64,000 bases of DNA from Actinernus sp. WN-2022 (taxonomy: Eukaryota > Cnidaria > Anthozoa > Actiniaria > Actinernidae): the NCBI GenBank assembly GCA_030867875.1, contig JAOWCC010001368.1, positions 806,001-870,000 of the forward strand, given 5' to 3'. A model generated the notes under the pieces. That model was not told the origin of the DNA and did no database searches. It worked only from the letters and a program-made list of their open reading frames with translations. Of this stretch, positions 38,401-62,319 are shown piece after piece. The position numbers were made by a program, and so were the translations under genes. Position 1 is the stretch's first letter. Each line of letters starts with the position of its first letter.

Positions 38401-41400
38401 AATTCTTCATTGTTATTTATTATTGTCGTAAACTTTACATTGTTATGTCAGATAACTGAGGAGTTTTCAACCAGTTGTCCCCCATCACCAACCTCTGGAG
38501 GCGCAGCACAGGTTCAGAGATCTAATGAGAAGACATTTAAAGTTTGCATAACACCAAAGCCTCCATCATCTCCAAGAAGGCCACACAAATCAAAAGTATC
38601 ATGTCAAGTGACCAAACCTCCCCAACAAAACTCACCGTGTCCAGTGAATAACATACCACAGGGAAGGACATCACACTGGGTGGCGATTGCACATCATGGG
38701 AACACACTCAGTCAAGGTATTGCACTTACTAATCAGAGGAACTCACCTATCAAAGAAAATGCATCCAACCTAGGGAATTCTATCAATCCCGGGAACATAG
38801 CCAATCAAATGAGTTCACCTTGTCAAGTAAGTACGTGGATTATTCCTAACAGCAGACCTCTGTCAAGTCCATATGTCATACGGACCAGTGGCACAGTGAC
38901 AAGTAGTATTAATGTCCCGATTGGCTACAGACCTGTCGTCAACAATGACTTACGACTTCAACCACCAGCAAAAGAGACTTGCAGTAGTAAAGAGAATGCC
39001 ACCTGTGGAAATGCTGATAACATGTCAGGCTTAACTCTCAACAGAACTTTGGGATCGTCTGGTGACCTGGTGAAAACAAGTCAACATGTAACTACATCTT
39101 CATCTCTTCTGAACGCCAGTAGCACGACCTCCCCATCAACATTTTTCACGTCTGCATCAGTAGGAACTTTTAATCACTGTATCACAACAACGCAGAGCCA
39201 TATACAGACAGGAGTGAGCTTAGTGAATTCTAACATCTCTCGTAGTCCATTACCAGCTAATGAAGACGCCACAGCTCTGCATTTAGCAGGTAGGGGTATG
39301 AATATGAGTTCCATGGATAGATCATTGCACAAAGATATGTCGCACATTGTGGATAATGTTGATCCACCATTATGCTTCCCATTCAGCCCAGTATCAGTAC
39401 CGACATTAAATCGTGATGCAACAGAACTGTCTTCCAAGAGATCTACAAATGGAGGCACCTCAAATGGTGAAATACCCTGTACAGAAGGTTGTGGTAGCAG
39501 TACCAATTCTGTATCAGAAATTTCCTCACGTTCGGTGTCAGTGGCGGCAGCAGCAAATTCTGAAAACATAACTTCATGTTTTGGGAATTGTGAGTCTTTA
39601 TACTCTACTTCATCTTCAAGCCTTAACTACCAGTCAGCAGCAGTTGAACCTGGAACTAGTCCATCTAGTGATTATGGCAGCTTGATATCTGAATCTGGTA
39701 CTCGCCTTAGTTGTTCTGGGTCTGAATCATTTTCCGAAATAGGCAGCCAATCTGCAAGCCAAGAAGGGATTTTTGATGGACTATTCCGCATACCTCGCCC
39801 TGTGCCATTAGACAACAGACAACCATTTGAACGATGTTCTGCCATTGAGGGTAGTCACGTATTCAATACACCTGGACTATTAAACTCACAAACAATGGAC
39901 AATACTAACAGAGTGGCGAACAGCCCACTAGATACACACCATCTGGCCGGCTATATGGGGTTTGACATGCCTGAACTTCCCCCTCTCGACGCATTTGAGG
40001 ATGGAATGTTAAACTACGACCTTAGCACAGTTTTGCCAGAGTACTTTAGCACCTCAGACGAGCCTTTGGTTGAAAGTTGTCAAAACCGGAATGATTCAGC
40101 AATTCATCCAATGGGTGATTTCTCCAGTGCAAATAACCCTTCAAAGCAAGGACAACATGCTAAAGATGCCTACATCACTGACCCTTCTGCTGCTTCACCT
40201 GGCGCTCGTGGAGCCATTGCACACTCACCATATTCTGTTATCAGCCCAACGGCTGATGTCATCATGACGACATCTGATGTCACTAGACCTAAGGATGTAC
40301 GGGACTCAGGAGGTCAAATGAATAATGTGCATTCCGTGAGGTTACCTTCCCCCAAAAGGAGTGAACTACATCAAACAGTGAGTTGTTTGACGTCATCTTC
40401 TTATCAGACCGTGACTCCTCCAAGAGTATTTTCAGAACAAGGGCCACATGGTATTGATACAATGGTCCATCTTTCATCTAACTGCTCGGCAGACCAAACA
40501 AGTACAGCCAGTAGTTGTGTAACTAGGGTTGTACCAGAATCGGCACGTATTACAGACTTCTCCCCTGAGTGGTCATATCCGGTGGGTGGGGTCAAGGTCC
40601 TGGTTACGGGCGAGTGGTCCATGTCTGATATGTCCTACACGTGTTTGTTTGATGGCTGCAGTGTGGAAGCCACTTTAGTGCAGATCGGTGTACTTCGCTG
40701 CTACTGCCCGTCCCACGATCCAGGCCTGGTTACCCTGCAGGTGGCTTGTAACGGGTTTATCGTTAGCAATGCCTGCGTGTTTGAGTACAGGGCATGTGAC
40801 ATGCCTAGTGGAACAACTACCAGACATGAGTGGCTGGCAATGGATGAAGCACGCTTCAAGCTAGCCATGTTAGACAGACTGGAGCGTCTGGAGGCCAGCC
40901 TTGGGTTACCAGCAGCCAGTAATGGAGCTGTTAGTAGGGGGCAGCAGCAGGAAATGACTTTCGAGCAACGTGTAATGAGGGCCTGCAGGGCTCTATGTAC
41001 CACCCAAACTGCAGAAGACAGTTTAGCAGAGCTGCAAAAGCCATTCCGTGGCATGACACTCATCCATCTCGCGGCAGCTCTTGGTTTTTCAGAACTCGTT
41101 CATGAACTAATAACAATGAGGCATACCGATATTTGTGACGTCATACGACAGGAAGTAGACCCAACGAGGAAAGATGAGTTTGCTTGTACGCCACTCATGT
41201 GGGCATGCGCATTGGGTCACAATGAAGTGGTCTCTGAGATGCTGTACTGTGATGTTAACACACTTTTGATCCCTGATGCTAGGGGACGCATGCCACTGCA
41301 GGTTGCACGAGATCGTGGGTACTTTGAGGTTGTAGACTGCATCGAAGAGTTCTTCGCCACGTGTCCCAGGAGGTAAATACAAAATCTTGAAGTTAACTAA

Positions 41401-44400: not shown

Positions 44401-46596
44401 CAGAGGCGCCAGTCACAGAGACGACGAGAGGAATACAAAACGAAGCAGCAGGAGGCTCGCTTCATGAGACAAGCTTCAAATAGGTACGCATAGTGACGTC
44501 ATGATAGTGGAAACACCGAGCGACGAACTGTAGACACCAAAACAGAATTACTTCGTCGATCCCTGAGTGAACGTCCCGTTATTGTAGGTTTGCATGTCAC
44601 TGTGGTATGTCAATAGAGTGTCCTAATCCTAGCTGTGTATGTCAATAAAGTGCCCTAATCCTAGGTGTATGTCAATAGAGTGCCCTAATCCTAGGTGTGT
44701 ATGTCAATAGAGTGCCCTAATCCTAGGTGTGTATGCCAATAGAGTGCCCTAATCCTAGGTGTGCATGTCAATAGAGTGCCCTAATCCTAGGTGTGTATGT
44801 CAATAGAGTGCCCTAATTGCTGCGAAGGCGATAGCCGTAGCAGCATCCCTAATTTGGGCTCCCTGTGGTGGACTTGAATTAGGTGGATGCTTCCTAGGAT
44901 TTTGCGATGTCCACAACATTTGCCTCGATCTGGTGCTTGACGTCATGCTCAGCGGTAATGTCACTCGTGGCGTTTTCCTCGACGGTGTTGTTGAATAGGC
45001 CCTTTGCAGCTAACAGTCACGTGCTGATATATTACTTCGTTAACGAATGAATTGAGCTCGTGATCCCCATGGGAAAGACGTTGCCATGGATACTGGAGAG
45101 CAAGCTATCTTTAAAAACGCAGTTTTAGAAAGATCGACAATCGATTGGAGGTGGAAAATAGCATTTACAAACAGGTTTTGCTAATAACACTACCGATCTC
45201 GTACAAGGCCTTTGAATAAATGAAGTCACATATTTTTTGCTCTCCAGTACAACCACGTGATTTGTTAGCTGCAAAGGGCCCATTGCGTTAGTGACCTTCG
45301 ACGGCGAATTCGGTAAGTATTTTCCCCTCAAACAACATGATTCTAGTGGGAAACGTTATTGAAACGTTTTTCCAAGGCATCTGGAAACTTTGGAGTTTGT
45401 ATAACAGGAAAATTCTGCTGATTTTCTTTGCTAAGCACAACACACCGTGTGATCTATGTGATCAAGGCGCGAATGGAATTTCCTGTGTTGTCGCTAGTGA
45501 AAGCAGGTAAATATGCTCAAAGACGAATGGACCAACATGACAAACAAGATCAACTGACTTACTTTGTTCATACCGAGCAACAAAACAAAACGATCAAACA
45601 TGACTGTTGTTTTACAACTGAGACAAATGCCGTTGTCGGCCAGTCAAATGATGGGAGGTCGTTGTGCCAACTGAATGACAGGCTATTGTGCCAACCAAAT
45701 GACAAGCTATTAACTGAGACAAATGACAGGCCGTTGTGCCAACAAGGCCATTGCGCCAACAAATGAGCCAACCAACTGTGGTTGCAATTTGCATAGGGAA
45801 TCATTCAACCAATCAATATGTACTGACATAGAAACTGATGAATCACAGAATTTTCCTGATGCTTTGGAAAAAAGTTCAAAGGATTATTTATTTCCGGTGT
45901 CGAGGGGAAGGTCGGAATAGAAAGAAACGTGACACAATTTGAAAATTGGAACTATCGAAAATTGAAATAAACGTTTCGTACCATGCCACTGCCCTTGATG
46001 ATTGCAGTCATGTGTCTTGCAAGATGGTGCCACAGAGTCATTGCACTGGAGTCACATGACCTGTGCAAAACCTGTATTTTATTGTATTCTTTATTTTAGT
46101 ACTAAAGACTACATACCAATAACCTCTCTACTCTGCTCTGTCCGTCAATTTTTTTTCATTCGTTCAAAGTACCAAAAAAATCTATAACTTCACTTCGCAG
46201 CACTTCCCTCTCTATTAGAAACTTCTAGTCCTAGGTGTGTATGTCAATAGAGTGCCCTAATCCTAGGTGTGTATGCCAATAGAGTGCCCTAATCCTAGGT
46301 GTGTATGTCAATAGAGTGCCCTAATCCTAGGTGTATGTCAATGGAGTGCCCTAATCCTAGGTGTGTATGCCAATAGAGTGCCCTAATCCTAGGTGTGTAT
46401 GCCAATAGAGTGCCCTAATCCTAGGTGTGTATGCCAATAGAGTGCCCTAATCCTAGGTGTGTATGTCAATAGAGTGCCCTAATCCTAGGTGTGTATGTCA
46501 ATAGAGTGCCCCAATCTTAGCTGTGTATGCCAATAGAGTGCCCTAATCCTAACCTGACTTGTTTTTTTGTTGTTCAGGTCAAACACCACCCCGTAG
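17407..46596 (+). CDS. CAMTA: CAMTA, calmodulin-binding transcription activator (multi-exon, 5' end missing)
   Basis: CAMTA proteins bind DNA through a CG-1 domain and respond to calcium/calmodulin through IQ motifs in the nucleus. Exons placed by conserved protein plus GT/AG sites: 17407-17452, 25366-25458, 26060-26131, 35879-36002, 36424-36461, 38452-41372, 41586-42151, 42496-42560, 42926-43000, 44266-44483 and 46578-46596. All junction phases agree and no stop interrupts them. Domain order: CG-1 (first four exons), a long Ser/Thr-rich linker, TIG, ankyrin repeats, four IQ motifs, as in animal CAMTA. The exons for the protein start and the CG-1 N-terminus (the HRWNTNEE-type region) were not found. 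The span of over 29 kb comes from introns full of mobile elements. Confidence 0.92.
17585..17725 (+). repeat. Tandem duplication of ~90 bp
   Basis: AGCAGTTGCCCAGAYATYTC followed by CCACATTAACCCCATTATGT occurs at about 17600 and again at about 17681, inside CAMTA intron sequence. A run of 17 C residues follows at about 17771. Confidence 0.7.
18139..18880 (+). pseudogene. LINE ORF1, coiled coil plus RNA-binding fold
   Basis: Starts MPVDGQRTRRETSSSSS. A coiled coil (LLELNQRVKVAEDKLAQVEA) is followed by NEQYSRRSNVRIFGIQVSEG, the signature of the RNA-recognition domain in L1-type ORF1 proteins. Then SHKTKAKLMKSKKTLKGTHF and FINKDLTCHNLELLKKARES follow in a shifted frame. A stop near 18436 and a frameshift near 18600 break it. 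The family role is RNA chaperone of the retrotransposition particle. Confidence 0.75.
19057..19683 (+). repeat. 19 bp minisatellite, ~33 copies, inside the LINE
   Basis: Unit TGATTATTATGGTACATAC, with a few copies reading ATCATGG or ATTTTGG. The last unit runs directly into the endonuclease start, so the array probably grew from the LINE's own sequence just upstream of ORF2. Confidence 0.95.
19684..21345 (+). pseudogene. LINE ORF2: endonuclease and reverse transcriptase
   Basis: Begins SLSLAHLNARSLNTPSKLDE (apurinic endonuclease start), then GVSKTWLND. After a deletion, RT motifs follow: VFLNISKEFDRVWHKRLFYK (about 20236), FLIYINDLTSNISSDSFLYA and DDTALLE (about 20430-20510). The C-terminal part HSLRIRTERFKKSYLPSTIS, YWNDLPLHLHE ends near 21313. 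Frames shift near 20310, 20410 and 21140. Confidence 0.85.
21346..23090. other. CAMTA intron sequence, nothing recognisable
   Basis: No similarity to known proteins is seen in the short frames on either strand. The sequence is AT-rich with several poly-T runs. Confidence 0.4.
23092..23330 (+). repeat. Dispersed repeat, second copy of 15340-15560
   Basis: CAACCTAGGTTGGAATATCA followed by ATGATTCTAAAAAGG and a T/G-run and CCCCTCCCCT-rich tract matches the left part of the TA-flanked element at 15.3 kb. This copy has a TA microsatellite at about 23176-23199. Confidence 0.7.
23583..25093. mobile_element. Mutator-like DNA transposon (non-autonomous), 10 bp TSD
   Basis: AAATGATTAT occurs at 23573-23582 and 25094-25103, directly flanking inverted ends of about 90 bp (left GCCTGAATTTCAGCCGTC, right GACGGCTGAAATTCAGGC; both include AATGCCATCCAGTGACGTCA). 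Long TIRs with a 9-11 bp duplication are typical of Mutator-like elements. No transposase is seen in the 1.5 kb. It carries a nested G-run repeat and a telomere-like GGGTTAGGGTTAGGGTTAG near 24438. Confidence 0.75.
24525..24885. mobile_element. Nested repeat with G-run/C-run ends
   Basis: Starts with a run of about 18 G after CCC, continues GTAGGGGTAGGGGTAGGGG, and contains several CATACCCTGTTCAAGA-type motifs. It ends TATATGGGAGTA plus a run of about 21 C, then GGG. The G-run and C-run form inverted ends. It is probably related to the insertion at 10940-11150. Confidence 0.55.
25135..25300 (+). repeat. SINE 3'-tail fragment
   Basis: GCAAATTGTTAGATCTTCAT followed by GTCTTCTCGGATAAGAACGTGAAA resembles the tail of the tRNA-derived SINE at 42688-42895 (CTTCACTTCTTCTCGGACAA). 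The tRNA-like head is absent. Confidence 0.5.
25366..25458 (+). CDS. CAMTA: CAMTA exon, CG-1 domain
   Basis: 93 bp exon (31 codons) between CTTGCAAG and GTATGT. It encodes DYRKDGYTWKKRTKTSTTRE and then DHFKRKILGIP, the most conserved DNA-binding part of CG-1 (YRKDGYCWKKRKDGKTTRED in vertebrates). Both ends are phase 0. Confidence 0.9.
25738..25850 (+). repeat. Dispersed repeat copy B
   Basis: Shares TATACCACACCAGTGAATA and CTCTGATTGGCTACTC with 13905-14060. A short inverted pair (GTGAATATGA/TCATATTCAC) lies at its right end. Confidence 0.6.
26060..26131 (+). CDS. CAMTA: CAMTA exon, CG-1 domain
   Basis: 72 bp exon between CATTTTCAG and GTGAGT. It encodes CMSALYSHSAIIPTFHRRIY and then WLLQ, clearly the IIPTFHRRCYWLLQ block of CG-1. 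Phase 0 at both ends. Confidence 0.92.
26765..26882 (+). repeat. Diverged copies of the 23 bp satellite
   Basis: Five irregular copies of (A/G)AGTCGTTTGGTCNTACTGTAA lie just left of the TTAA element. The homogeneous array of the same unit lies just right of it at 28594. Confidence 0.7.
26887..28590. mobile_element. TTAA-flanked transposon, ~1.7 kb, long TIRs
   Basis: TTAA at 26883-26886 and 28591-28594 flanks inverted ends starting AGTGTTTATGAAACCAAAT. Similarity between the ends extends over about 150 bp, through TCTCTTTTTCGCCATTCA and AAAACTGTCCGG. TTAA duplication is the hallmark of piggyBac-type transposition. The internal frame 27705-28091 (128 codons) is not recognisable as a transposase. 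A second palindrome is nested at 27222-27405. Confidence 0.75.
27222..27405. repeat. Nested palindromic MITE
   Basis: ACAAATAAAAGATGGTTCTC with CTTGTTCTATAA at the left mirrors TTATAGAACAAGGAGAACGA with TCTTTTATTTGT at the right; GTCTTGAGAG/CTCGAAAG lie further inside. Total about 185 bp. Confidence 0.65.
28594..29456 (-). repeat. 23 bp minisatellite, ~37 copies
   Basis: Unit (plus strand) GGAGTCGTTTGGTCGTAC followed by TGTAA; variants read GGCCGTAC, GGTCATAC or AATGAGTC. Because 23 is not a multiple of 3 and no frame of the unit holds a stop, the minus strand stays open for 329 codons with a 23-residue period. This is an artefact of the repeat, not evidence of a gene. Confidence 0.95.
29460..30325. 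other. CAMTA intron sequence with two weak coding-like patches
   Basis: Plus strand about 29757-29890 reads GKPRRGRKARGKNTRSNKYE and ends at a good donor, CCTGG/GTAAGT. Minus strand 30000-30248 reads MSSKLKRGCPWVSPKKKKKL, a basic protein ending at a stop. Neither is recognised; both could be transposon-derived. Confidence 0.3.
30330..30778. mobile_element. TTAA-flanked MITE, 449 bp
   Basis: TTAA at 30326-30329 and 30779-30782. The ends GGTGATGTTACACGAGACGA and its mirror are followed inward by ACGACGATTTTTCG/CGAAAAATCGTCGT. The interior is built of degenerate copies of the same ACGATTTTTAACG and GTTGCGC motifs. No coding capacity. Confidence 0.8.
31883..32122 (-). CDS. Small basic protein of the TTAA transposon
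   Basis: 79 codons. GGRGGKRVGAGRKK is a basic AT-hook-like N-terminal patch, followed by LRQLTKKINDRHWKSQHAAI and FKTWRELKG. This layout resembles the N-terminal DNA-binding segment of transposase-type proteins, but I do not recognise the family. It ends at the hairpin, suggesting truncation. Confidence 0.35.
   Translation of the reverse strand: MFEILMNEGSGGRGGKRVGAGRKKTPALRQLTKKINDRHWKSQHAAIYLSKQIFKTWRELKGQGTFGSDSAFAAESLQE
31890..31919. repeat. Perfect 12 bp hairpin
   Basis: AGTGACTCGGCC-GCGAA-GGCCGAGTCACT. GC-rich stem in an AT-rich setting; role unknown. Confidence 0.7.
32430..32560. repeat. AT microsatellite, ATTAATACT units
   Basis: Irregular TTATTA/ATATAT tract ending in (ATTAATACT)n. 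The reverse-complement unit (ATTAATAGT)n fills about 33225-33320, so the two tracts are inverted to each other. Confidence 0.8.
32569..32731. repeat. Long palindrome (MITE), ~65 bp arms
   Basis: TTTTGAGACGCCAATACCGA and ATTATATTGCCGGC on the left mirror GCCGGCAATATAATTCGGTA and TCGGCGTCTCAAAA on the right. Part of the same arm recurs at about 33158-33191 (GAGGCCAATACTATGTTATA, TTGGCGTCTCAAAA). Confidence 0.75.
33225..33320. repeat. AT microsatellite, ATTAATAGT units
   Basis: About ten units, ending at the TTAA target of the next transposon. Confidence 0.8.
33325..34340. mobile_element. piggyBac-like non-autonomous transposon, 1016 bp
   Basis: TTAA at 33321-33324 and 34341-34344. The inverted ends CCCTTTCACT/AGTGAAAGGG begin with CCC, as piggyBac ends do. 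Frames inside (33508-33819, 33959-34225) show no transposase motifs. Confidence 0.75.
34341..34490 (+). repeat. Microsatellite: TAATAACAC and TGTTATTAA units, then GTCGTC
   Basis: Simple repeats directly right of the TTAA element; the element probably inserted into an existing ATTAAT-rich microsatellite. Confidence 0.75.
34560..35227. other. CAMTA intron, no recognisable feature
   Basis: No conserved reading frame and no repeat structure noticed. Confidence 0.4.
35228..35625 (+). repeat. 56 bp tandem repeat, 7 copies
   Basis: Unit begins CATCCAATCAATGTTGAGTA and continues CAAGACAATAGGTCTAGTTA. Inner copies are practically identical; the first and last are variant. It lies about 250 bp upstream of the CG-1 exon at 35879. 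Confidence 0.92.
35879..36002 (+). CDS. CAMTA: CAMTA exon, end of CG-1 domain
   Basis: Follows the acceptor TTCTACAG. Encodes NPDVVLVHYVNLIEDL (NPDIVLVHYLN in vertebrates) and then a linker ending SEVSLM. The GTGAGT donor at 36003 keeps frame with the next exon; using GTCAGC at 35990 instead would bring a stop into frame. Confidence 0.85.
36424..36461 (+). CDS. CAMTA: CAMTA 38 bp microexon
   Basis: Between TTTTCCAG and GTCAGT. With the split codon from the previous exon it encodes YSGVSPQLIPDIK and ends at a codon boundary, joining cleanly to ITEEFSTS of the large exon. Support is from phase and splice signals only. Confidence 0.65.
36880..36985. repeat. Hairpin repeat in CAMTA intron
   Basis: GGCCTGGACC...TGTGACATAAATACCTTT at the left mirrors AAAAGGTATTTACATCACAGGCC at the right with a few mismatches. 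Confidence 0.55.
37165..38355. mobile_element. DNA transposon with TIRs, just upstream of CAMTA large exon
   Basis: Ends GGGAGTTGAAACGTGT/ACACGTTTCAACTCCC. A second inverted pair of 34 bp (ACACTCGTTCTCAATAACAC at 37317, mirrored at 38296-38329) shows that the left arm gained about 130 bp. The interior holds a 54 bp tandem array. It ends about 100 bp before the exon at 38452. Confidence 0.65.
37526..37840 (+). repeat. ~52-54 bp tandem repeat, 6 copies
   Basis: Unit ATCAAAATAGGGAAATCGCA then TAAACTTTGTGTGAGCGAGC, GGTTTGTGTATAAG; some copies lack TT or read CACATAAACT. Confidence 0.9.
38452..41372 (+). CDS. CAMTA: CAMTA large central exon: linker, TIG, ankyrin
   Basis: 2921 bp exon after ATGTCAG, ending at GTAAAT. 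The first ~700 codons are a Ser/Thr/Pro/Asn-rich linker with an acidic hydrophobic patch, MPELPPLDAFEDGMLNYDLS (about 39967-40026), a candidate activation segment. The TIG (IPT) fold starts at ITDFSPEWSYPVGGVKVLVT (about 40547) and ends near VFEYRAC (40800). Ankyrin repeats follow (GMTLIHLAAALGFSELVHEL near 41050; TPLMWACALGHNEVVSEM near 41190; GRMPLQVARDRGYFEVVDCI near 41285). A 2.9 kb exon without stops is strong evidence for an intact gene. Confidence 0.95.
41586..42151 (+). CDS. CAMTA: CAMTA exon after the ankyrin repeats
   Basis: 566 bp exon between TTTTCCTAG and GTAATC. Encodes an acidic, Ser-rich segment (SPLSEDEEDITDSAPGSPPQ; SSASSQSSPPSSKSSLSPGS) ending KEFHEFLCSSKKLLEKNFSE and LTLT. 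The same spacing to the first IQ motif is seen in vertebrate CAMTA (EFAQLTLSDHEQRELYEAA). Confidence 0.9.
42496..42560 (+). CDS. CAMTA: CAMTA IQ-motif exon 1
   Basis: 65 bp exon between ATCGTAG and GTACAG. Encodes DREQRELYQAAMIIQEAYRS and YK, an IQ-type calmodulin-binding helix. The split GAT codon joins the previous exon. Confidence 0.9.
42688..42895 (+). mobile_element. tRNA-derived SINE in CAMTA intron
   Basis: The head has RNA polymerase III boxes: GGTTAGTTCAGTGGTAAAGC (A box) and CCGGTTCATATCCC (B box, 42740-42753). The tail CTCAGGGTCTTAAAATAACG and CTTCACTTCTTCTCGGACAA resembles the fragment at 25.15 kb. The acceptor stem does not close as in a true tRNA, so it is a SINE rather than a tRNA gene. 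Confidence 0.65.
42926..43000 (+). CDS. CAMTA: CAMTA IQ-motif exon 2
   Basis: 75 bp exon between TTCTGTAG and GTTTGT. Encodes TRRQQRDQEMQAAVLIQNHY and RRYKQ, a second IQ motif. Phase 0 at both ends. Confidence 0.9.
44266..44483 (+). CDS. CAMTA: CAMTA IQ-motif exon 3
   Basis: Follows the acceptor GCTTCCAG. Encodes YAVFKKMTQAALIIQNQYRA, then RRAAAIIQNHFRIYRQRRQS, two further IQ motifs. It matches YALYKKMTQAAILIQSKFRS of vertebrate CAMTA1. The donor GTACGC at 44484 is plausible; if unspliced, the protein ends NRYA at the TAG at 44491-44493. Confidence 0.9.
44596..44818 (+). repeat. 32 bp minisatellite, array 1 (~7 copies)
   Basis: Unit GTGTGTATGTCAATAGAGTG then CCCTAATCCTAG. The array stops in mid-unit at CCCTAAT, and the same unit resumes at 46229. 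Confidence 0.92.
44819..46228. mobile_element. 1.4 kb insertion splitting the 32 bp minisatellite
   Basis: Sequence unlike the array separates two half-units. TGCTGCGAAG near the left edge (about 44819) mirrors CTTCGCAGCA near 46193-46202. It contains GGGCTCCCTGTGG, shared with 7.5 and 11.9 kb, and a nested MITE at 44998-45280. No recognisable protein. Confidence 0.5.
44998..45280. repeat. MITE with GGCCCTTTGCAGCTAAC ends
   Basis: GGCCCTTTGCAGCTAACA...TCACGTG at the left mirrors CACGTGATTTGTTAGCTGCA, AAGGGCC at the right; 283 bp in total. Confidence 0.65.
46229..46555 (+). repeat. 32 bp minisatellite, array 2 (~10 copies)
   Basis: Same unit as 44596-44818. It ends about 20 bp before the acceptor of the candidate last CAMTA coding exon. 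Confidence 0.92.
46578..46596 (+). CDS. CAMTA: CAMTA terminal coding exon (candidate)
   Basis: After TTTGTTGTTCAG, the phase fits the donor at 44484 and gives SNTTP then TAG at 46594-46596. About 850 bp of 3' untranslated sequence and an AATAAA follow. It rests on splice signals only. Confidence 0.5.
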
Positions 46597-47449: not shown

Positions 47450-47680
47450 CTGTTGGTTTATAAAGCATTTTTTGTTCCTTCATATATTTGTAACTTGTGG
47501 TTGTGCGCAAATCGTGTCACTCGCTCACTATTGTGTTAGCATGCCATGCAGAGAGCCTGGGAAGGAGCTTGGTTTTCGATTTATTCAATATTTGCATATC
47601 GATATTATATTAAAGTTCCATCTATGTTTTACTGATTGATGTGCCTAAAATGTTCTATTCCAAGTCTCCATCGCCGATTT

Positions 47681-47685
47681 CCCAT
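47681..47685. repeat. Polinton target-site duplication, left (CCCAT)
   Basis: CCCAT directly left of the element is repeated at 62315-62319. A preceding T on the left (TCCCAT), and the last T of the right end, allow a 6 bp reading, which is the usual Polinton duplication length. Confidence 0.8.
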
Positions 47686-47760
47686 AGTAGTATATAATAT
47701 GCCGATCCTGGCGCAGCACCTCCGTTTTTATTGTGACGTCACATCCGATGACCCCCTCCC
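47686..47760 (+). repeat. Polinton left TIR
   Basis: 75 bp identical to the reverse complement of 62240-62314; weaker similarity (CTTTGTCGACCACAA against CTTTGTCAACCACAA) continues to about 47800. It includes TGACGTCACA. Confidence 0.95.
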
Positions 47761-47917
47761 CCCAACATGTTTTTTGGCCTTTGTCGACCACAATATGTGC
47801 GTTCGAGTGTACCAAATACCAACTTATTATCTCTCGAGTACCATAGATGTTGTACCCATTTGTTGTCCACTTTAAACAGCAATTAGAGAAAGGCTAGTAT
47901 AAGGTATACATCGAACG

Positions 47918-48232
47918 ATGACTGAGAAAATAACTTGTAGTTGGTTGATGCGAGGGAAGGACACGAAGAAATGCGTAAGGAAGTGTTCTAAGACGACAGA
48001 GTACTGTGCTCAGCACAACTTCCAGATTCAAAGAGGGAGCGCCTTATTCATCCCATGTTCGAAGTGTAGTCGTGGTTGTCGTACGAGTTACGGACTTTGT
48101 ACGAAGTGTGGTGCATCACAGCGCCGTATCATTCGCGAGACGAAATACCGCGAGACTAAATGCCGCACTAAGGATTGCTTTGCGAAGGTGTTGGTGGAAT
48201 TGAAGGACCATAAGGTATTTCTAGATAATTAG
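47918..48232 (+). CDS. Cysteine-rich zinc-binding protein of Polinton
   Basis: 104 codons, intact, ATG start, first gene after the left TIR. Twelve cysteines: C7, C19, C23, C30 (then H33), C47, C50, C54, C61, C64, C82 and C87. PCSKCSRGC...GLCTKCG (residues 46-65) has the CxxC-x10-CxxCG spacing of a zinc ribbon. The rest is strongly basic (ETKYRETKCRTK), as in nucleic-acid-binding proteins. It lies 117 bp upstream of the TFIIB-like gene on the same strand; a role in transcription is suggested by that position only. Family not recognised. Confidence 0.7.
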   Translation: MTEKITCSWLMRGKDTKKCVRKCSKTTEYCAQHNFQIQRGSALFIPCSKCSRGCRTSYGLCTKCGASQRRIIRETKYRETKCRTKDCFAKVLVELKDHKVFLDN

Positions 48233-48348
48233 AAAATCGCGATATGGGAAAAAAAAGAAGAAGAAAGAGAAACCGGCATCATGTCTGTCTTACTTCTTTT
48301 TTTCCCTTATATTAAATAATAGATAGACCTATAGTATACGCCACTAGT

Positions 48349-49453
48349 ATGGATGATCCTCTTGGCTTGCTTGGCGGTAGCCTATATACGTTTGATATTA
48401 ATCCTATTATTCCACAGCCATACATCAACCCCCCGGAAATGTGCCCCGAATGTCTTTGCCCAATGGAAGTGCTAGGAACTGAATTCATATGTTCCACCTG
48501 TGGTCTTGTTTCCGAGGCTGAACTAAGCGAAGAAACGATCAATGTTGCTACTCGGTTGCGTATAGTAGGTCCGGATAGCTTTCGGTATCAACGCGATCTC
48601 GATCGTATGAGCCCAACGGACAACCAAGAATTTCAACGACGCACAGTTATGAGAGAACTACAGGCATACAACACTGATTATAAACAAAGCCACAACCTCT
48701 CGTTTCCCACAAACGTATTAGTAATCGTGGCCGATACATTCGTCCAATCGAAGAAAGTTTGTGTCAAGCGTAGTCATGCTAAGAGTAAGTAAGTAAGTAA
48801 GTAATCTTTATTTATACACGGTACGCTCATCAGGGTTTTGTAAAAAGTTTACAATATAAAATTACATTTAAAATTAGCTCAAATAAAAACCTGCTTTCCA
48901 TGCGTGCCGTGTGCTAATTTAAAATTAAGTTAAGCTAAGATAAGAAAAGAGAACTATTCTGGCTGCTCTACTTTACCATGCATGTATACAATGTGGGTTC
49001 GTTCGCTCTAAAAGCGAGGTTGCTCATTTCATGCAACTCAACAACCGGTGTATCTATCGCGGTAACGTATTTATACACTCGCTACATGTCGACGACAAAA
49101 TTGATATTGACTTGAATGCTGATCACATAGCTCCTCATATCGTAACGACTTTTGCCAAACTCGACCTCGTTAGAGTACGTCTCCAACAAATAGTCTATGA
49201 GATAGTTCATACAGCAATCGAAGGCCATATTGGTATCCACTCTTTACTTCACACCAAAGTTGTTGGAGCAAGCTACGAGGTGTTACGTCGTGCAGGAGCA
49301 TGTATAGCTCTTATTGACGTTGTTAAACGGTGTGGTATACGTAAGAGTTCGATCGTACGTTTTACCGACGAGTTGCTTGCTTACCATTCACACTTCGAAC
49401 CTATCTATGATAAACACGAACTAAATAGTAGTCGAACGATAACCGCCGAGTAA
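48349..49453 (+). pseudogene. TFIIB-like transcription factor, interrupted by a LINE fragment
   Basis: TFIIB bridges TBP/promoter DNA and RNA polymerase. Part 1 (48349-48784) has a zinc ribbon at residues 32-52, CPECLCPMEVLGTEFICSTC then GLV, like the TFIIB ribbon. It continues to LSFPTNVLVIVADTFVQSKK, the first helices of a cyclin-type repeat. Part 2 (about 48950-49453, another frame) resumes that repeat with RTILAALLYHACIQCGFVRS and EVAHFMQLNNRCIY. It then has a second cyclin repeat: VVGASYEVLRRAGACIALID and VVKRCGIRKSSIVRFTDELL. The insertion at 48785-48940 falls inside cyclin repeat 1. Similarity is at fold and motif level; a VLTF3- or Brf-like assignment is less likely given two cyclin repeats. 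Confidence 0.78.
48785..48940 (-). mobile_element. LINE 3'-end fragment with (TAAG)n tail
   Basis: Begins TAAGTAAGTAAGTAATCTTT in plus orientation, i.e. an inverted LINE 3' end with a 4 bp tandem tail. It is flanked by GCTAAGA at 48778-48784 and 48934-48940, a plausible target-site duplication. It splits the TFIIB-like gene. A GTAAGT at the left edge looks like a splice donor, but no acceptor restores the frame. Confidence 0.65.
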
Positions 49454-49508
49454 GAATTATAATCAAAAAATTTTGAGAAAACACAAAAAACAAAACTGGT
49501 GTCACCAG

Positions 49509-49574
49509 AACCTCTCTAGGAACCACTTTCACCTCAGTTTTCCTTCCTTCGCCATTTTCGTTCCTAGAGAGGTT
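49509..49574. repeat. Inverted repeat after the TFIIB-like gene
   Basis: AACCTCTCTAGGAAC (49509-49523) pairs with GTTCCTAGAGAGGTT (49560-49574) around 36 bp. It could form a stem in the transcript end of the TFIIB-like gene. Confidence 0.5.
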
Positions 49575-49639
49575 TTTGCTTTCTTTGCCGGGCCCGGCTT
49601 TCACTGTATTTGTTCTACTGTATTTGTTCTACTGTTTAT

Positions 49640-49935
49640 TTGGATCCTGCCCTAACTGGTTGAGGTACAACCGGCACTCCAAGGAACTCTATTCGAGATC
49701 CCGTAAGCTTTAAACCCAAGTACCCGACCCAGTATTGACATTATTTCTACTGTAATTATTCAACTTCTGCCACATCGACAGACGCGCTACGATTTGTGTG
49801 GGGCTGGAGGCTTTTTAACCCACACAAACCGGTCTACCACATGTGGCCCCCGCAGGATTCGAACTCTGAACTCAAGGGGCCTCCATTTTCCCTCGAGCCC
49901 AGCGCAGAACCGTGAGGCCACATGTGCTAGACAGT
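49640..49935 (-). mobile_element. tRNA-derived SINE inside the Polinton
   Basis: On the minus strand the head reads CACATGTGGCCTCACGG then GTTCTGCGCTGGGCTCGAG (A-box region) and AGAGTTCGAATCCTGCGG (B box near 49855-49865). It begins and ends with CACATGTGG/CCACATGTG. It lies between the TFIIB-like gene and the 206-residue membrane-protein gene. Confidence 0.55.
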
Positions 49936-50103
49936 GACGTAGGCGTTAAAAATCGTATTTATGTCTTTCACTATGTTAATTAGTGGCGGATGAAATCGAG
50001 ACAGAAATTTACATATGAACCAGACATACGAATTAAGCGCAGCTGCTCTTAGCAAAGTGAAAATAAACCCCCCGTTTATTTCTCTCGTAGGACATTTCAG
50101 TTT

Positions 50104-50724
50104 TTATCCCACTAGACTGCCAAGTTGTGCTCGCAGTTCTTGCTTGAGTTTGGCTCGAATTTGTTCCACGCTTTTTTCACCTGTTCGTTCCGAACCTGAA
50201 CTAGCAGAAGTTTTATGGCGAATTTCGACCCTCATAGCCTCATATTTTTCTGCTTCAGCGAGGATGAGATTATATTCAGAATCATACACATTTTCATCAC
50301 GTAGGGATTTTGACACGAGATCACGAATCGTATTAATTTTCGATCTAGCCAACATGATGGTTTTCTCATGTTTAGAAACTTTTATTCCAAGCTTTTTAGC
50401 CTCGATAGTCGTAGCGGTCGAAATTACCCCACAGAGTCCGCCGATAACGCCAAGTGGTAGGCCAATCACGACACCAACCCCGCTTAGAGCAACCGCCAAT
50501 CCTGAGCTTGATAAAAGCACGGATAGACTACCTGTTGCCACAGCGACGCCGTGAACTATTCTATGCGCACGGGCATATTTCTTACGCACACCTTCGTAAT
50601 GCTTTTCTTGGGTTTCTATATCCGAAAGCGTATCGCGGACTGTTTGCAGCCGAAAATTCTCTCCAGTGAGCTGGGGATAGATCTGTGGTGCCGTTGGAAT
50701 TGTTTGAATTGAATCGCTTGCCAT
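50104..50724 (-). CDS. Polinton membrane protein with glycine-rich hydrophobic segment
   Basis: 206 codons, intact. The ATG follows GCTATATA directly, a start context shared with the integrase gene. Residues about 55-105 form a long hydrophobic Gly/Ala/Val segment (SLSVLLSSSGLAVALSGVGV, VIGLPLGVIGGLCGVIS) that can make one or two membrane helices. It is flanked by charged coiled-coil regions (VRDTLSDIETQEKHYEGVRK; VEQIRAKLKQELRAQL). Proteins of this type occur in other cnidarian Polintons as I recall them; function unknown. It follows the minor capsid gene on the same strand, 19 bp after its stop. Confidence 0.75.
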   Translation of the reverse strand: MASDSIQTIPTAPQIYPQLTGENFRLQTVRDTLSDIETQEKHYEGVRKKYARAHRIVHGVAVATGSLSVLLSSSGLAVALSGVGVVIGLPLGVIGGLCGVISTATTIEAKKLGIKVSKHEKTIMLARSKINTIRDLVSKSLRDENVYDSEYNLILAEAEKYEAMRVEIRHKTSASSGSERTGEKSVEQIRAKLKQELRAQLGSLVG

Positions 50725-50743
50725 TATATAGCTATGCTATAAC

Positions 50744-51406
50744 TTACTCAATCTTCAATACGTAGAGAATAGGTCTACCACGAAAGTCTATGGTGTTGCC
50801 TTTCTCGTCGCAAATTGTCAGGCGAAGGCTGTTTCTCATCGACCCTACAGCTCGAGCGGTTAGTTGTAGTAGTGAAGCGTATGTCGATTCTGTGAATCTT
50901 CCGCCTCGGATCTGTAATCTAGCTATGACTTTCGATCGCTTTCCATCTCGAATTGAAAAGCTAGAATCTACCACATCGCAGTTGACATACGCTGTGTGGA
51001 TATTTTGTAGCGTTAGTTCATGACTACCCACTGGGATTGTCATATCATCTATACCATGTTCATTACCTTTGACACCCAGTAGTGCACAGAGATTTCTGCT
51101 GAACTGGATTGGGGTTTTAACCTCTAGGGTCCAAACCCTCGTCGGTAAGGTTTTCACTAATTGCACGATACCAGCATCGATTGCGGGTTTTAAATATGTT
51201 TGAATGCTTGCCATATCATGATGCCCTATAGCGATATTGTATGGAAACCCCACACCTTGGGTATCCCACCAGAACGAAACCATCTTTTCTAGGTTCCACC
51301 AACTATTCTCAAAAGTGACCTCGACTAGCGAAATGTTGTGGATACAAATAGGTTGATCGAAGTAGACCGTATGGTCAGCCGATGTGGTGGTGACAAATAA
51401 GAGCAT
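50744..51406 (-). CDS. Minor capsid (penton, single jelly-roll) protein
   Basis: 220 codons from the ATG at 51406; the frame is open 12 codons further, but the internal start sits at the shared TTCAATATG context and gives MLLFVTTTSADHTVYFD, which looks like a true N-terminus. The strand-rich sequence with ESTYASLLQLTARAVGS near the end, and the terminal LRLTICDEKGNTIDFRG then RPILYVLKIE, resemble Polinton penton proteins, which form the capsid vertices. Intact. It diverges from the 581-codon gene across a 37 bp promoter. The fold was assigned by resemblance and not tested. Confidence 0.75.
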   Translation of the reverse strand: MLLFVTTTSADHTVYFDQPICIHNISLVEVTFENSWWNLEKMVSFWWDTQGVGFPYNIAIGHHDMASIQTYLKPAIDAGIVQLVKTLPTRVWTLEVKTPIQFSRNLCALLGVKGNEHGIDDMTIPVGSHELTLQNIHTAYVNCDVVDSSFSIRDGKRSKVIARLQIRGGRFTESTYASLLQLTARAVGSMRNSLRLTICDEKGNTIDFRGRPILYVLKIE

Positions 51407-51443
51407 ATTGAAGGTATAAACTGTATATATATTTAACTTCAAT
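51407..51443. promoter_or_regulatory. Divergent promoter, 37 bp, near-palindromic
   Basis: The whole gap between two divergent ATGs begins ATTGAAGGTATAAACTG and ends TTTAACTTCAAT. Both genes thus start with TTCAATATG, and a central TATATATA serves both strands. The same plan recurs at 54151-54184. Confidence 0.65.
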
Positions 51444-53189
51444 ATGAGAAGGCACGGAGGTCTTTTCAGCTACCATCATGAAGGGAAAGATGAAGAGAAG
51501 GAGGTCGCAACACCGAATGCTAATTTACGGTCAAAGGCTGAGAATCGAGCCAGGAGAGAGAGAAATAGAGAAGCTATAGAAGATAAAAAGGTCGCAACAC
51601 TGAATGCCGATGTGTTGGCGAAGTTTAAGAAAAGATACCCACATGCAGATTTTCACCAGTTCTATGCAACCACGGATATAGATGGCCCCGGCAAATATTC
51701 AACGAGTATTTGGTTTCGAGATGGGGATTCTAGCTATGTGGTCTATGGCGATGATGTCTCCAAGCTACCTGCCACCATTCAAACACGTATTGATAACGTG
51801 CTGTGGGATGTGCGTGGAGGTTTCCCATCTACGTTGACACTAGACAAAAGTGTGAAATATCCTGTTCAAGCAACTCCTTTTACCAAAAAAGCACAAGATA
51901 TCGATCTCACTAATCTATGGATATACGTCACACCTACGAAAAAGTTCGAAGCAGGTGTCCCGAACATATTCAAGGACACCGTCGTAACGCATACGACATC
52001 ACATGAGTCTTATGCATGGTTGTCTGCTCCGAATTTCAAATATTGGCCTCAACAGTTAAATTTCGCAACGTGGTGTGCAACTTCTGGATGTGGAGTGTCG
52101 TTGTTCGACCCTATTTTCAAAACATATCCACCCATTGTTCAAGGGTTCCTACGATTTCACGTATATTTCACAATACGAAGAATTCTACGTGAACTTGGTG
52201 GTACTAATGGAGTGCCTCTACCTGATGACCTTGCATTCAAGCAAACTGATAACCTATACAGCAAAGCAGCTCTTGAGACCTTATGCATAGAGTTTGGTTT
52301 ATCTCGAACGCCAGACTTCCGATGGAAAGGAGGTAGGAATAACGGATTAGGAGATATATTCCTTTTATACCCAGGTCCGACGGGATACGTAAACGTCCAT
52401 GGAGCTCGAAGCTATGACAAAGGGGCAACCACATGGCCCCAGCGCTATAATTTGTTTGCAGACCAAGGAGATAAGGAGGAAATGGGAGATCTGGTATCCT
52501 TTATTCGGAACGATGAACACGAAGGGAAACAATACAATTGGTTTACGCTTCCAATCGGGAAGGGGTTAACGGAGGCTGGATTGGGTAGGTTGACTCGATC
52601 AGCCGAGGCTTTCGTATACTGTATTCTAGGTGCTCAAAACGACTTGGATGGATCCATCATAGTTGAACACAACGTTAGAGAAAAGTTTAAAACATTGGTT
52701 AAAGCCGCAATTCTTGTAGACGACTTAGTTAGAAGCTATGATAACTATAAGCTAGTCGTACTACACACACATAAGAGGCTAGATCTAGCAATAGCTGTAG
52801 GGGTGCGGTTACTACCAAGCAATCTTGAGTACTACCTCAGCAAGAAGGAGGGTTATAAAAATCCAACCCCGACGGCCACGAAAGATATGGTGTTAGGTGT
52901 AAACGATGTTAATGGGGAGGGTCTCAAAACCAAAACACAACCTATGGAAGGACATGCCCAAAAGAAACAATTACCACACAACGCAAAGCAACAAGTTCCA
53001 CCTCCCACACGTAACGGTACCACCATACCAAAGCACTTACCAAATCCTACTACACAACATGAGATCAATCTAGCTGGTTGTTGTTTCGCTAGCGTCGTTT
53101 GTATTGCTCTACTACGAACACCACTACGGCTACGATCAATAGCCAAGCATTCTTTCCTAGGGCTTCTGCAGCTTTACCAGCCATATTAA
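51444..53189 (+). CDS. Large conserved Polinton protein, function unknown
   Basis: 581 codons, ATG at the shared promoter motif. The N-terminus is basic (RRHGGLFSYHHEGKDEEKE). The core is rich in aromatics and has a Cys pair: WLSAPNFKYWPQQLNFATWC then ATSGCGVS, followed by FLRFHVYFTIRRILRELGGT and RWKGGRNNGLGDIFLLYPGP. I recall similar proteins from other cnidarian Polintons, always unnamed; a virion or packaging role is a guess. The tail after about residue 545 overlaps the last 100 bp of the convergent gene and looks non-native (CIALLRTPLRLRSIAKHSFL), so the true stop may be lost or shifted. Confidence 0.7.
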   Translation: MRRHGGLFSYHHEGKDEEKEVATPNANLRSKAENRARRERNREAIEDKKVATLNADVLAKFKKRYPHADFHQFYATTDIDGPGKYSTSIWFRDGDSSYVVYGDDVSKLPATIQTRIDNVLWDVRGGFPSTLTLDKSVKYPVQATPFTKKAQDIDLTNLWIYVTPTKKFEAGVPNIFKDTVVTHTTSHESYAWLSAPNFKYWPQQLNFATWCATSGCGVSLFDPIFKTYPPIVQGFLRFHVYFTIRRILRELGGTNGVPLPDDLAFKQTDNLYSKAALETLCIEFGLSRTPDFRWKGGRNNGLGDIFLLYPGPTGYVNVHGARSYDKGATTWPQRYNLFADQGDKEEMGDLVSFIRNDEHEGKQYNWFTLPIGKGLTEAGLGRLTRSAEAFVYCILGAQNDLDGSIIVEHNVREKFKTLVKAAILVDDLVRSYDNYKLVVLHTHKRLDLAIAVGVRLLPSNLEYYLSKKEGYKNPTPTATKDMVLGVNDVNGEGLKTKTQPMEGHAQKKQLPHNAKQQVPPPTRNGTTIPKHLPNPTTQHEINLAGCCFASVVCIALLRTPLRLRSIAKHSFLGLLQLYQPY

Positions 53190-54150
53190 ATATGAAGCTA
53201 ACGATTCCTCCAATAATAGTAGGTAGTATGTCCGACAACTTTTTCCTAGTGCTTTTAAACCCTTGCCGAGCCCTTTTGCGATTTTAGCAAGGGACTTCGT
53301 CAGCACGGAAACTATATATGACTCCAACCACGGCACCCGCTACAGCAAGTACGCTAACCACATTAAAACCGTACTTTTTGAAAATCTCTTTTGCCCTATC
53401 GCGTAGCGACCTGTGCTCATTGATGGCTTCGGTTTGTTGCTCTATCCTTTACACCTCTCGTTCCCTAGTTTCTATCCTATCTTGGGCTTCCTGCTTTTCC
53501 TTCGGAGATTTGGAAGTATCTTGGATGGTTTCCTCGTCTGCTTCGTTTTCTGCGGTGAGTCGATCTATTACGGTGTCGTTCTTCCTAACCACGGCTTCAG
53601 CAGGGCTTTCTACGTCTCCATCTATTGCGGCTCCCAGAGCAGTTGTAATCAACTTATTATCCTCGAGCATTTTTTTGTCAAGATTACCCTCGCGATCGAC
53701 TAGGGTGTGCCATATTGCGCCCTTTCGTTTTAGTTTTACCTCCACCTCATATCTATTACCCAATTTTACCTCAATCTTACTATTATTACTCCATCGGTCT
53801 ACGGTTGGAAATTTCGTATCGACGTATTTCCATGCTATTTCCTTCCCGTCTGGTCTTTCAGCGAATGACGGTTCCTCGGTTTTACTGCTTTGCCCTGCTT
53901 CATCTAGATTATTCAATTCGATGTACTCATGTGGGTTGGATCCCCATTTATCCCTATTCTTCCACCACCTATTCCACCTGAGTTTCGATCTTCGTCCTAT
54001 TCTTCTCCCTACTCTTCTTATCCAAGTATCTTCGTTATCCTTACCACGTGGTCTCAGCGAATCCCATTCTTCATCGTCGATATCCTCATTAACGTCAGCT
54101 TGACCTTCTTCGGTAAAAGGGTCAAAGTCTACCTCGCCCTCAACAGCCAT
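53089..54150 (-). pseudogene. Polinton membrane-anchored protein, broken
   Basis: Starts at 54150 (MAVEGEVDFDPFTEEGQADV, acidic), with TTCAACATG at the start. A basic patch follows (RRVGRRIGRRSKLRWNRWWK), then a charged region to REREV, where a TAA interrupts near 53449. Beyond it two hydrophobic helices can be read in changing frames: VVSVLAVAGAVVGVIYS (about 53330) and GKNAWLLIVAVVVFVVEQY (about 53100-53150), ending at a stop at 53089-53091. So there is one stop and two frameshifts. The helices near its end suggest a membrane- or lipid-associated virion protein; function unknown. Confidence 0.65.
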
Positions 54151-54184
54151 GTTGAACTTAACTATATATCTTGCTATATTCAAT
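54151..54184. promoter_or_regulatory. Divergent promoter, 34 bp, near-palindromic
   Basis: Reads GTTGAACTTAACTATATA... to ...GCTATATTCAAT. It lies between the divergent starts at 54150 (minus) and 54185 (major capsid, plus). As at 51407-51443, RTTGAA and TTCAAY abut the two start codons and TATATA is central. Confidence 0.65.
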
Positions 54185-55420
54185 ATGATATCGTCGAAGT
54201 TAGTTCCCGAACGAGCACGAAGAGAGCCTCGAGCACTAAAAGCTCCACGAACCCTATATAGGAAAACTTTCACCCCATCATCTGCCAACCCAGGAGAGAC
54301 ACTCTATGTGGAAGTACCAACACTAGGAGAAAACATCGTACTAGTACCTGGTAGCTTAGCACTATTGGGTGACATTGCATTGTCTGGTGGACACGCCAAC
54401 AATCGTGTGGTAGCCAATGTCGGACGCTGCTTGGTAGTACATCGAGTTTGAAAAATGGGAGCTGAAATAGTAGAATACACTGCTCGGTCAGATCTCCTAC
54501 AGACATATTCCGATGTATATCTATCTACGCAGGAGAGAGAAACTAGAACACAACAAGGCATCCAATCAGAGAATACAAACAAGCTACGTTCGAAGGCTGG
54601 AGATGCAGGTACTTCGGATGTTGGAGAAAACGCGCTCCTAGTTGCATATGGTTCCAAATATAGAATTCCGTTGGATGTTGATATTCTGACACAACATGGA
54701 GTTCTATATCCCCACGCCCTACAAGACACTATTTCATTCGAGTTGACTCTAGCACCTGCTGTTGACATAGTTGTTGGATCAGACAGCACGAAGATAGGTA
54801 CATACAAGCTTAACAACATACAGTTAGAATATGAAGCAATCAAAAATGAAACTCTAGCTAGGCACGCACTTAACGCATACGAAACAGGTGCTGCTTTCCT
54901 ATGCAACCACGCTGTTCACTTCAAGACCGTACCTATCGCCAAGGCATCAGATACTTTGGTATCTCAGAACATCAATGTTCTACGACGATCCTTTGCTGGG
55001 CTACTTCTACTATTCGTGGATCCACATACCGCTGGTACTCGGGATAGCGAAGCATTCTCAAATCCTGGTATTTCGAAGATAGAGGTAGATGTCAACGGGG
55101 TTCCAAACAGATTCTTTCCAGGAGGTATGCTACCACCAGATTTCTGGGAGGCTGCAAAAGGATGGTTTGCCACATCAACTACTTCTATGACTCTTACCAA
55201 ATTTCACAACAACAGATTCGCCATTCTAGTTGATTGTCGCACAGCAAAAGATTCCGCTGTTCATGGTGATGGTATGGCTCAAACAGGTGGTGGAAAAGAC
55301 ATCGACATTCGTATACATAGGCCCGCAAACGGTAGTGGAAACGTAAACATGCATATCTACGTCCTTGCAGATGCTCAGCTTACGATATTGAACGGAGCAC
55401 TACAGAATATAACGTACTAA
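54185..55420 (+). pseudogene. Major capsid protein (double jelly-roll), one in-frame stop
   Basis: About 411 codons from the ATG after TTCAAT, with one TGA at 54449-54451. N-terminal part: NPGETLYVEVPTLGENIVLV, GSLALLGDIALSGG. C-terminal part: YKLNNIQLEYEAIKNETLAR, LRRSFAGLLLLFVDP and VPNRFFPGGMLPPDFWEAAK, the last typical of Polinton/adintovirus hexon proteins. These build the icosahedral shell. The stop lies between the two jelly-rolls. Its TAA at 55418-55420 overlaps the ATPase ATG by one base. Confidence 0.82.
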
Positions 55421-56041
55421 TGGATTCCCTGGTAGAACACATCCCATTCAACGCACTCATAGTAGGTCCAACAAACTGCGGGAAAACGGCATTTCTCATA
55501 GAGCAGCTTCGTGGAGCATTTTGCGATAAGTTCGACTACATAGTATTAGTGTGTCCCCACGTATGCCCACAACAAAACCTATCGTGGATTTGCCAATCGA
55601 GATCCACACTTCTATATCGTATCTCCGCCACAGGATGCTATCAATGCCGCATTGCATATCTGTGCTACCTTTTGGGCAGGTACCAATACACTATTGATTC
55701 TAGATGATTGTGCCGCCTCAAAAGACGTAAAAAGAAGAACCGACAAGCTCGTAGATTTGGCATTCTCTGCTCGCCATATCGGTATTTCAGTTTGGGTGCT
55801 TTCCCAACAATTAACAAGCATATGCAAACCTTTCCGCGAAAACGTAGCTGTCGTAGTTGCCTTTCACACCGCGTCGGCTATAGATGGAAAAAGGCTATTC
55901 GAGGACAATGGAGGCTCACAAGAAGGCGGTGAGTTACAAGCAGTGCTCCGGTCCCACAAGTTCGCTCGCATATGCTTTTGTTTACGACATCCTTTTGCAG
56001 TAGTGTTAGAGCTACCCGGACCTACAGCATATCATGGATGA
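55420..56041 (+). pseudogene. DNA-packaging ATPase (A32/FtsK-type), frameshifted
   Basis: Starts MDSLVEHIPFNALIVGPTNC with Walker A GPTNCGKT (residues 16-23). Walker B NTLLILDDCA lies near 55690 in the next frame. RRTDKLVDLAFSARHIGISV then WVLSQQLTSICKPFREN carries the sensor-like region of A32 ATPases. A frameshift near 55556-55562, in a run of C, separates the two parts. The role is pumping genome DNA into capsids. The gene follows the major capsid gene with a one-base stop/start overlap and overlaps the next gene by 8 bp. Confidence 0.85.
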
Positions 56042-56605
56042 TAACGAAATACTTGAGCTACTAGGTGAGGATGTAACAGGCCCACCACCAAAAACAGAGG
56101 ACGCGTGTTCATCTACAACAGACAACCGGGAAGCACTTTCCATTTTAGCTGCAACAGGTACCACAAAAGAATATCTAGGAAAAAATTATCTCTAGGAGAC
56201 ATTTCTAGACTACCTGAAAAAGAAGTAGATAGATTGTATAGAAGATATCAGGCCGTGCTAGCTCAGCAAATAACAGGAAGCTTAGTCGATGGTGTGATGC
56301 GTCTAGCTACCCGATTAGTTGCTTACCTAGTCCCTATAGATTCTCAAGAAGCACTGATCAAAGACCTACAAGAAGACCACCTAGTCCGTAACGAGATCAG
56401 TGCTGCTACTGGCTTGTTATCACTTAAAGCAGGTCGCTTCGTAGCGTTAGCTAGCGTCTTGTTCCACGTATCTGGTCACATAGTTATTCCTAGTAGCTCT
56501 GCTACGACACCTATTGAACCTTCACATACACCTACTATATCGAAGCGAGATGGAGGAACAAACGGATCGGATAACTGCAGATCCTCCGAAGACTTCACCG
56601 ACTGA
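56034..56605 (+). pseudogene. Polinton conserved small protein, frameshifted
   Basis: ATG at 56034 inside the ATPase end gives MDDNEILELLGEDV. The frame changes near 56180 in a run of A and continues LSLGDISRLPEKEVDRLYRR, YQAVLAQQITGSLVDG, AYLVPIDSQEALIKDLQEDH and FVALASVLFHVSGHIV. Mostly helical, with a hydrophobic C-terminal part that may be a membrane anchor. Function unknown; I recall relatives at the same position after the ATPase in other cnidarian Polintons. Confidence 0.55.
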
Positions 56606-56916: not shown

Positions 56917-56966
56917 GGTGGTACGACATTTGAAGACTAGGACCATAGGTTATATGTCATAGTAGG

Positions 56967-57188: not shown

Positions 57189-57217
57189 TACGTATACTGG
57201 CATTGTTAGGATTCGGA

Positions 57218-57934: not shown

Positions 57935-57950
57935 TGGTTTAGAATAAAAT

Positions 57951-58016: not shown

Positions 58017-58041
58017 GGGTCTCCTTGTTATGCTATATATA

Positions 58042-62314: not shown

Positions 62315-62319
62315 CCCAT
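62315..62319. repeat. Polinton target-site duplication, right (CCCAT)
   Basis: Matches 47681-47685. Confidence 0.8.

Follow-up and report, generated by a model that had tools for sequence, protein, structure and literature searches.

The question raised by this locus is whether an animal Polinton has encoded a transcription initiation factor of its own. To our knowledge, Polintons are thought to depend wholly on host transcription. In this study, we analyzed a 64-kb stretch of the genome of the cnidarian Actinernus sp. WN-2022 (contig JAOWCC010001368.1, positions 806,001 to 870,000, hereafter the window), in which a preliminary description had reported a gene with the architecture of the general transcription factor TFIIB inside such an element. 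The span of that gene is 48349–49453 on the + strand, and we considered in turn the element that surrounds it, the layout of the gene, its likeness to TFIIB and archaeal TFB, its relatives in other sequences, and the role that its product could have had in a working element.

The attribution to a Polinton was borne out, as the gene is enclosed by a Polinton-type element of 14.6 kb (47686–62313). Terminal inverted repeats (TIRs) of 107–108 nt that are 93% identical were found at both ends of the element, the left TIR (47686–47793, + strand) starting with AGTAGTAT and the right TIR being at 62207–62313 (− strand). Immediately outside both TIRs is a perfect 6-bp direct repeat, TCCCAT, which constitutes the target-site duplication (TSD; left copy, 47680–47685; right copy, 62314–62319). 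The left TIR is followed, ahead of the TFIIB-like gene, by a cysteine-rich ORF of 104 aa (47918–48232, + strand), for which no family match was found in Pfam or PHROGs and one was found in NCBIfam at E 0.76. Further to the right are a minus-strand gene ORF (50744–51442), a 581-aa ORF on the + strand (51444–53189), and a gene on the + strand with one in-frame stop (54149–55420) whose product is a putative capsid protein, which in Polintons is of the double jelly-roll type. A search of a protein database with part of this gene (54455–55417) identified 62 relatives at E ≤ 0.001, including a protein from the coral Oculina patagonica that is listed as hypothetical and has no assigned function, and no convincing match in the PDB was obtained with either the capsid-like protein or the profile of its relatives. 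Many of those 62 relatives are about 417–423 aa long.

The remaining element genes that could be named are an A32-type packaging ATPase (55420–56041, + strand), which is broken into two frames whose pieces matched Pox_A32 in Pfam at E 5e-4 and 2e-4, and an rve-type integrase (58030–58895, + strand), which is broken into overlapping ORFs in different frames, one of which (58331–58591) matched rve in Pfam at E 2.8e-4; all three of these scores are under the curated cut-offs. On the − strand, the ORF at 58822–61629 is polymerase-like, with motifs of a family-B DNA polymerase, which in Polintons is protein-primed, spotted by eye; the polymerase models of Pfam gave nothing at E ≤ 0.1, and no polymerase match came from NCBIfam or the PDB at the limits used. 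Residues ~132–194 of the same ORF make up a stretch of the endonuclease VII type (best PHROG match E 8.6e-6; Pfam E 2.1e-4, under the cut-off). Another ORF within the element (57203–57934, 243 aa) resembles by eye the peptidase region of a retroelement, its sole Pfam match being unrelated (E 0.035). Outside the element, the window has a gene of host type that encodes TIG and ankyrin domains (38410–41376), which we assume to be CAMTA-like, and one 32-bp tandem repeat that forms two arrays to the left of the element (44605–44817 and 46225–46551). On the basis of its TIRs, TSD and gene content, we call the element a Polinton. This copy is dead, because an in-frame stop disrupts the capsid-like gene, the ATPase and integrase genes are spread over several frames and the TFIIB-like gene is interrupted. 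Searches for relatives of the element through its capsid-like protein or its polymerase-like ORF found none in viral contigs and none in phages.

The three motifs that had been quoted for the TFIIB-like gene are all present on the + strand within its span: the zinc ribbon is in the ORF 48349–48792, and the cyclin-repeat motifs TILAALLYHAC and VVGASYEVLRRAGACIALID are in the open frame 48944–49450. The gene is, however, not a single ORF, as it consists of two open pieces in different frames that are ~160 nt apart. Piece 1 (48349–48786, + strand) encodes an N-terminal DPLGLLG motif, the zinc ribbon, a linker and the first part of cyclin repeat 1, and piece 2 (48947–49453, + strand) encodes the remainder of cyclin repeat 1, cyclin repeat 2 and the stop codon. 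The interrupting stretch of ~160 nt (about 48787–48946) opens with a TAAG-type run and can fold into an inner hairpin (z −1.86, with 6 of 200 shuffles folding equally well); a second copy of it is absent from the 64-kb window. When the two pieces were aligned with the profile of the relatives described below, piece 1 ended at profile position 153 and piece 2 started at position 152. Since these positions abut, the pieces are those of one gene with ~160 extra nucleotides and with essentially nothing lost. The extra stretch has no counterpart in the relatives and is probably a small mobile repeat. An intron would be another explanation for a stretch of this kind, against which stands that the relatives have nothing at that position.

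Evidence for the family to which the gene belongs was sought with sequence profiles. When the window was read in six frames and its 693 ORFs of 40 codons or more were ranked with a local TFB profile, built almost wholly from haloarchaeal TFBs, piece 2 came out on top (E 0.0018), followed by piece 1 (E 0.017), and these top two ORFs are adjacent and in the correct order; the third-ranked was another ORF of the element (E 0.12). The observed scores were not reached by any of 2000 shuffles of piece 1 or any of 2000 shuffles of piece 2, scores having been listed for 1426 and 1540 of them, respectively, and the remainder presumably being lower. In NCBIfam, the sole match to piece 2 was TFB (NF001658, E 0.0062), and piece 1 had one weak match, to replication factor A (E 0.099), and none to TFB. 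In Pfam, the sole match to piece 2 was the TFIIB repeat (E 0.033, under its curated cut-off), and the TFIIB zinc ribbon was third among four weak matches to piece 1 (E 0.29), two models, one for a different zinc ribbon and one unrelated, having scored better. Neither piece had a match in PHROGs. Comparison with TFB by hhalign of the single pieces gave E 1e-5 and a probability of 82 for piece 1, and E 0.0021 and a probability of 13 for piece 2.

No curated cut-off of Pfam or NCBIfam was reached by the window pieces or by their relatives, which counts against a TFIIB identity. With PF00382, the window scored 14.6 bits and the best relative 18.4 versus a curated cut-off of 23.6, and with NF001658 the scores were 15.7 and 20.5, respectively, versus a cut-off of 384. 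Such cut-offs are database thresholds and do not represent a biological feature, and it is because they were missed that we refer to the gene as TFIIB-like. The structural comparison that had been proposed as a check was uninformative: single-sequence structure models of the two pieces had mean pLDDT values of 36 and 47, and Foldseek searches with these low-confidence models returned no matches at E ≤ 0.001 for either piece.

Of the 268 candidates from a database search with piece 2, four had E ≤ 10; the E values of these proteins were 5e-39, 1e-36, 7e-35 and 1e-8, and their identities were 47, 47, 47 and 31%, respectively. Three of these relatives are uninterrupted proteins of 430, 441 and 387 aa, and the other, P0065, has 230 aa, is from a contig of 772 nt and is without the zinc-ribbon part. 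The profile of the four relatives matched piece 2 at E 5e-55 and piece 1 at E 2e-36, piece 1 having played no part in the search that yielded them. Beyond these four, 29 candidates among proteins of 91–290 aa included none at E ≤ 10 with piece 2, and no homologs were found in viral contigs or in phages with piece 2 or with the TFIIB-like family. Two plasmid matches of piece 2 (E 5 and 10) were taken as chance.

That the likeness as a whole arose by chance, with zinc ribbon and cyclin motifs mimicked by random ORFs, is an explanation we put at next to nothing. Every single family score is weak, as would be expected if it were correct; the shuffles, the relatives at E 5e-39 to 1e-8 and the colinearity of both pieces with those relatives nevertheless rule it out. 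The likelihoods that we attach to the alternatives discussed here overlap, both among themselves and with that of the explanation we prefer, and are not intended to sum to one.

The relatives also connect the gene to the TFIIB family more securely than the window pieces do by themselves. Their profile aligned with archaeal TFB by hhalign at E 7e-7 with a probability of 92 over 145 columns, which cover the second half of cyclin repeat 1 and cyclin repeat 2. None of 100 column-shuffled TFB profiles did as well (best E 0.012), and the reversed TFB and capsid controls gave E 0.42 and 0.49, respectively. Searched against the PDB at E up to 10, the profile of the relatives had eight matches, of which seven were TFB or TFIIB, with E 8e-4 for two of them and E 0.14–0.28 for the other five, and the eighth was a BM2 protein (E 0.081); a TFB match at E 8e-4 covers cyclin repeat 1. 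TFB or TFIIB models in Pfam or NCBIfam were matched by P0063, P0064 and P0065, all under cut-off, and in neither database by P0066. The two C-x2-C pairs of a zinc ribbon were found, with ligand spacing kept, in piece 1 of the window gene, P0063 and P0064, and the first pair of P0066 differs in being C-x-C. Two tandem cyclin repeats follow the ribbon, as judged by sequence. The profiles therefore uphold the TFIIB-family architecture of a zinc ribbon followed by two cyclin repeats that had been claimed for the gene, and on these sequence comparisons we consider the window gene to be one very divergent TFIIB-family homolog inside a Polinton.

More mundanely, the gene could derive from the TFIIB of the host, as a retrocopy or as a copied exon, the latter being an outcome that the preliminary description had named as one that would overturn its proposal. 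A host-type gene is indeed present in the same window, but a copy of an animal TFIIB should match TFIIB in the PDB at once, and neither piece had any PDB TFIIB match at E up to 10 in a library that includes eukaryotic and archaeal TFIIB/TFB chains as well as Brf chains. In addition, relatives with 47% identity occur in other sequences. A host copy is therefore practically excluded.

It is harder to dismiss the possibility that the gene is a passenger, that is, a TFIIB-like gene of another virus or of a host that was gained once by this copy of the element and had no role in Polinton biology. The link between the TFIIB-like family and Polintons rests on one broken copy: a single Polinton with such a gene was seen here, and the four relatives are without genomic context. 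The gene is also only about 0.5 kb from the TIR, a site where cargo can be gained. Against this are its location on the same strand as the nearby element ORF 47918–48232 and the sharing of the DPxGLL motif and architecture by two of the relatives, neither of which is decisive. On balance, we regard a passenger gene as rather unlikely.

Comparison with known B-type factors brings out what has been kept in the window gene and what has changed. As in archaeal TFB and eukaryotic TFIIB (NF001658; PF00382, PF08271), a zinc ribbon precedes two cyclin repeats, and the profile matches extend across repeat 1 and across the second half of repeat 1 together with repeat 2. Unlike TFB and TFIIB, the family of the element has an N-terminal extension with a DPxGLL motif, common to the window gene, P0063 and P0064 and absent from P0066, and its scores are under the curated cut-offs. 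Moreover, a GPEW stretch that is invariant in nine compared TFBs was not seen, by eye, after the ribbon of the element. The Brf subunit of TFIIIB belongs to the same fold family, and P0063 was named "transcription initiation factor TFIIIB Brf1 subunit/transcription initiation factor TFIIB" by its source; there were no Brf chains among the eight PDB matches of the relatives' profile.

The TFIIB fold could also have been put to a different use, with the protein acting as a decoy or regulator that competes with host TFIIB or Brf and so dampens or redirects host transcription. The very divergent repeats, which score under every curated cut-off, the N-terminal extension with its DPxGLL motif in the window gene, P0063 and P0064, and the lack of any convincing TBP or polymerase subunit in the element are all compatible with such a role. 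A decoy might not, however, need the polymerase-docking zinc ribbon and linker, which have been kept in the family, and we consider this use of the fold unlikely.

In TFIIB and TFB, the zinc ribbon is the docking site for RNA polymerase, and the TBP–DNA complex is held by the cyclin repeats, which also read the flanking DNA. Our preferred explanation, which we think is probably correct, is that the gene is a Polinton-borne and highly divergent member of the TFIIB family, broken here by a short insertion, and that in a working element its product would be a B-type initiation factor. Through its cyclin repeats, such a protein would contact the complex of host TBP with DNA as well as the adjoining promoter sequence, and through its zinc ribbon and linker it would engage host RNA polymerase II and direct it to promoters of the element; recruitment of host Pol II to those promoters is the likely activity that we infer for the factor. 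Because nothing seen was convincing as a polymerase subunit or as a TBP, host Pol II and host TBP would supply the remaining initiation functions. The best candidate for a TBP gene in the window had E 0.47 with a profile of two haloarchaeal TBPs. Among the ORFs scanned with Pfam, the sole polymerase-type match was that of ORF 50104–50724 to the C-terminal domain of the bacterial RNA polymerase alpha subunit (E 0.017), which we read as chance since it is under the cut-off and has better unrelated matches alongside it.

A candidate target of the TFIIB-like factor is a TATA plus TTCAATATG start motif at genes of the capsid cluster, its designation as the target being a guess on our part. The motif is found at the starts of the minus-strand ORF 50744–51442 (51404–51431, − strand), the 581-aa ORF 51444–53189 (51424–51446, + strand) and the capsid-like gene (54163–54187, + strand), and there is none before the TFIIB-like gene itself. 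The first two of these sites overlap head to head between two divergent ORFs. Searched as TATAT, 8–24 nt and then TTCAATATG including the start codon, the pattern was confined across the 64 kb to these three capsid-cluster starts, with 4 matches at 3 sites versus 0.02 expected in the window, and of 300 Markov sequences generated for the element, 2 contained it at least once; these chance figures are post hoc, as the pattern was derived from the very sites that it matches. By itself, TTCAATATG is not unusual. It occurs 4 times in the window versus 1.05 expected (3 of 100 shuffles had as many) and represents 3 of the 512 ATG contexts in the element, in which another context occurs 4 times, and 241 of the 300 Markov sequences hold some ATG context at least 3 times. 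The promoter motif that the preliminary description saw as shared by the capsid genes is real at three gene starts, although its definition came after the fact, and the suggestion made there that the element supplied an initiation factor for a late gene class is a conjecture about function. A broader proposal, which we advance tentatively and hold to be somewhat short of an even prospect, is that there is an animal Polinton lineage whose own TFIIB-family initiation factor recruits host Pol II and TBP to dedicated TATA plus TTCAATATG promoters, as a minimal viral transcription system that has no polymerase.

The element resembles described Polintons/Mavericks and virophages in having a TIR, a 6-bp TSD and integrase-like, ATPase-like, polymerase-like and capsid-like genes. 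In the titles and passages of the Polinton/Maverick, adintovirus and virophage literature that were searched, mainly open-access ones, we found no TFIIB gene in any Polinton. The word TFIIB is absent from the main texts of three articles on virophages, Polintons or Mavericks (PMC3671162, PMC10120064, PMC8097293), and a passage in another article states, apparently of the zamilon virophage, that it "does not encode TFs" (PMC11464507). A virus-encoded B-type factor is likewise present in the Nucleocytoviricota, a likeness by gene type and not by sequence comparison. TFIIB is among the Nucleocytoviricota markers picked for near universality and RNA polymerase subunits are also marker genes in that group (PMC12638062), whereas no RNA polymerase subunit was convincingly detected in the element.

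The TFIIB branch described here is so divergent that it scores below the cut-offs of Pfam and NCBIfam, which is perhaps why it has been overlooked. In one proposal, Polintons gave rise to the giant viruses after acquiring an RNA polymerase and a capping apparatus (PMC8715426). The presence of a TFIIB-family factor in a Polinton would mark a move toward that proposed origin and, if true, a polymerase-less transcription system fits what the proposed passage from Polintons to giant viruses would lead one to expect. Such a factor would also provide a testable promoter–factor pair in a small animal element. Our findings hint that, in some Polintons, part of the machinery for starting genes may be supplied by the element itself.
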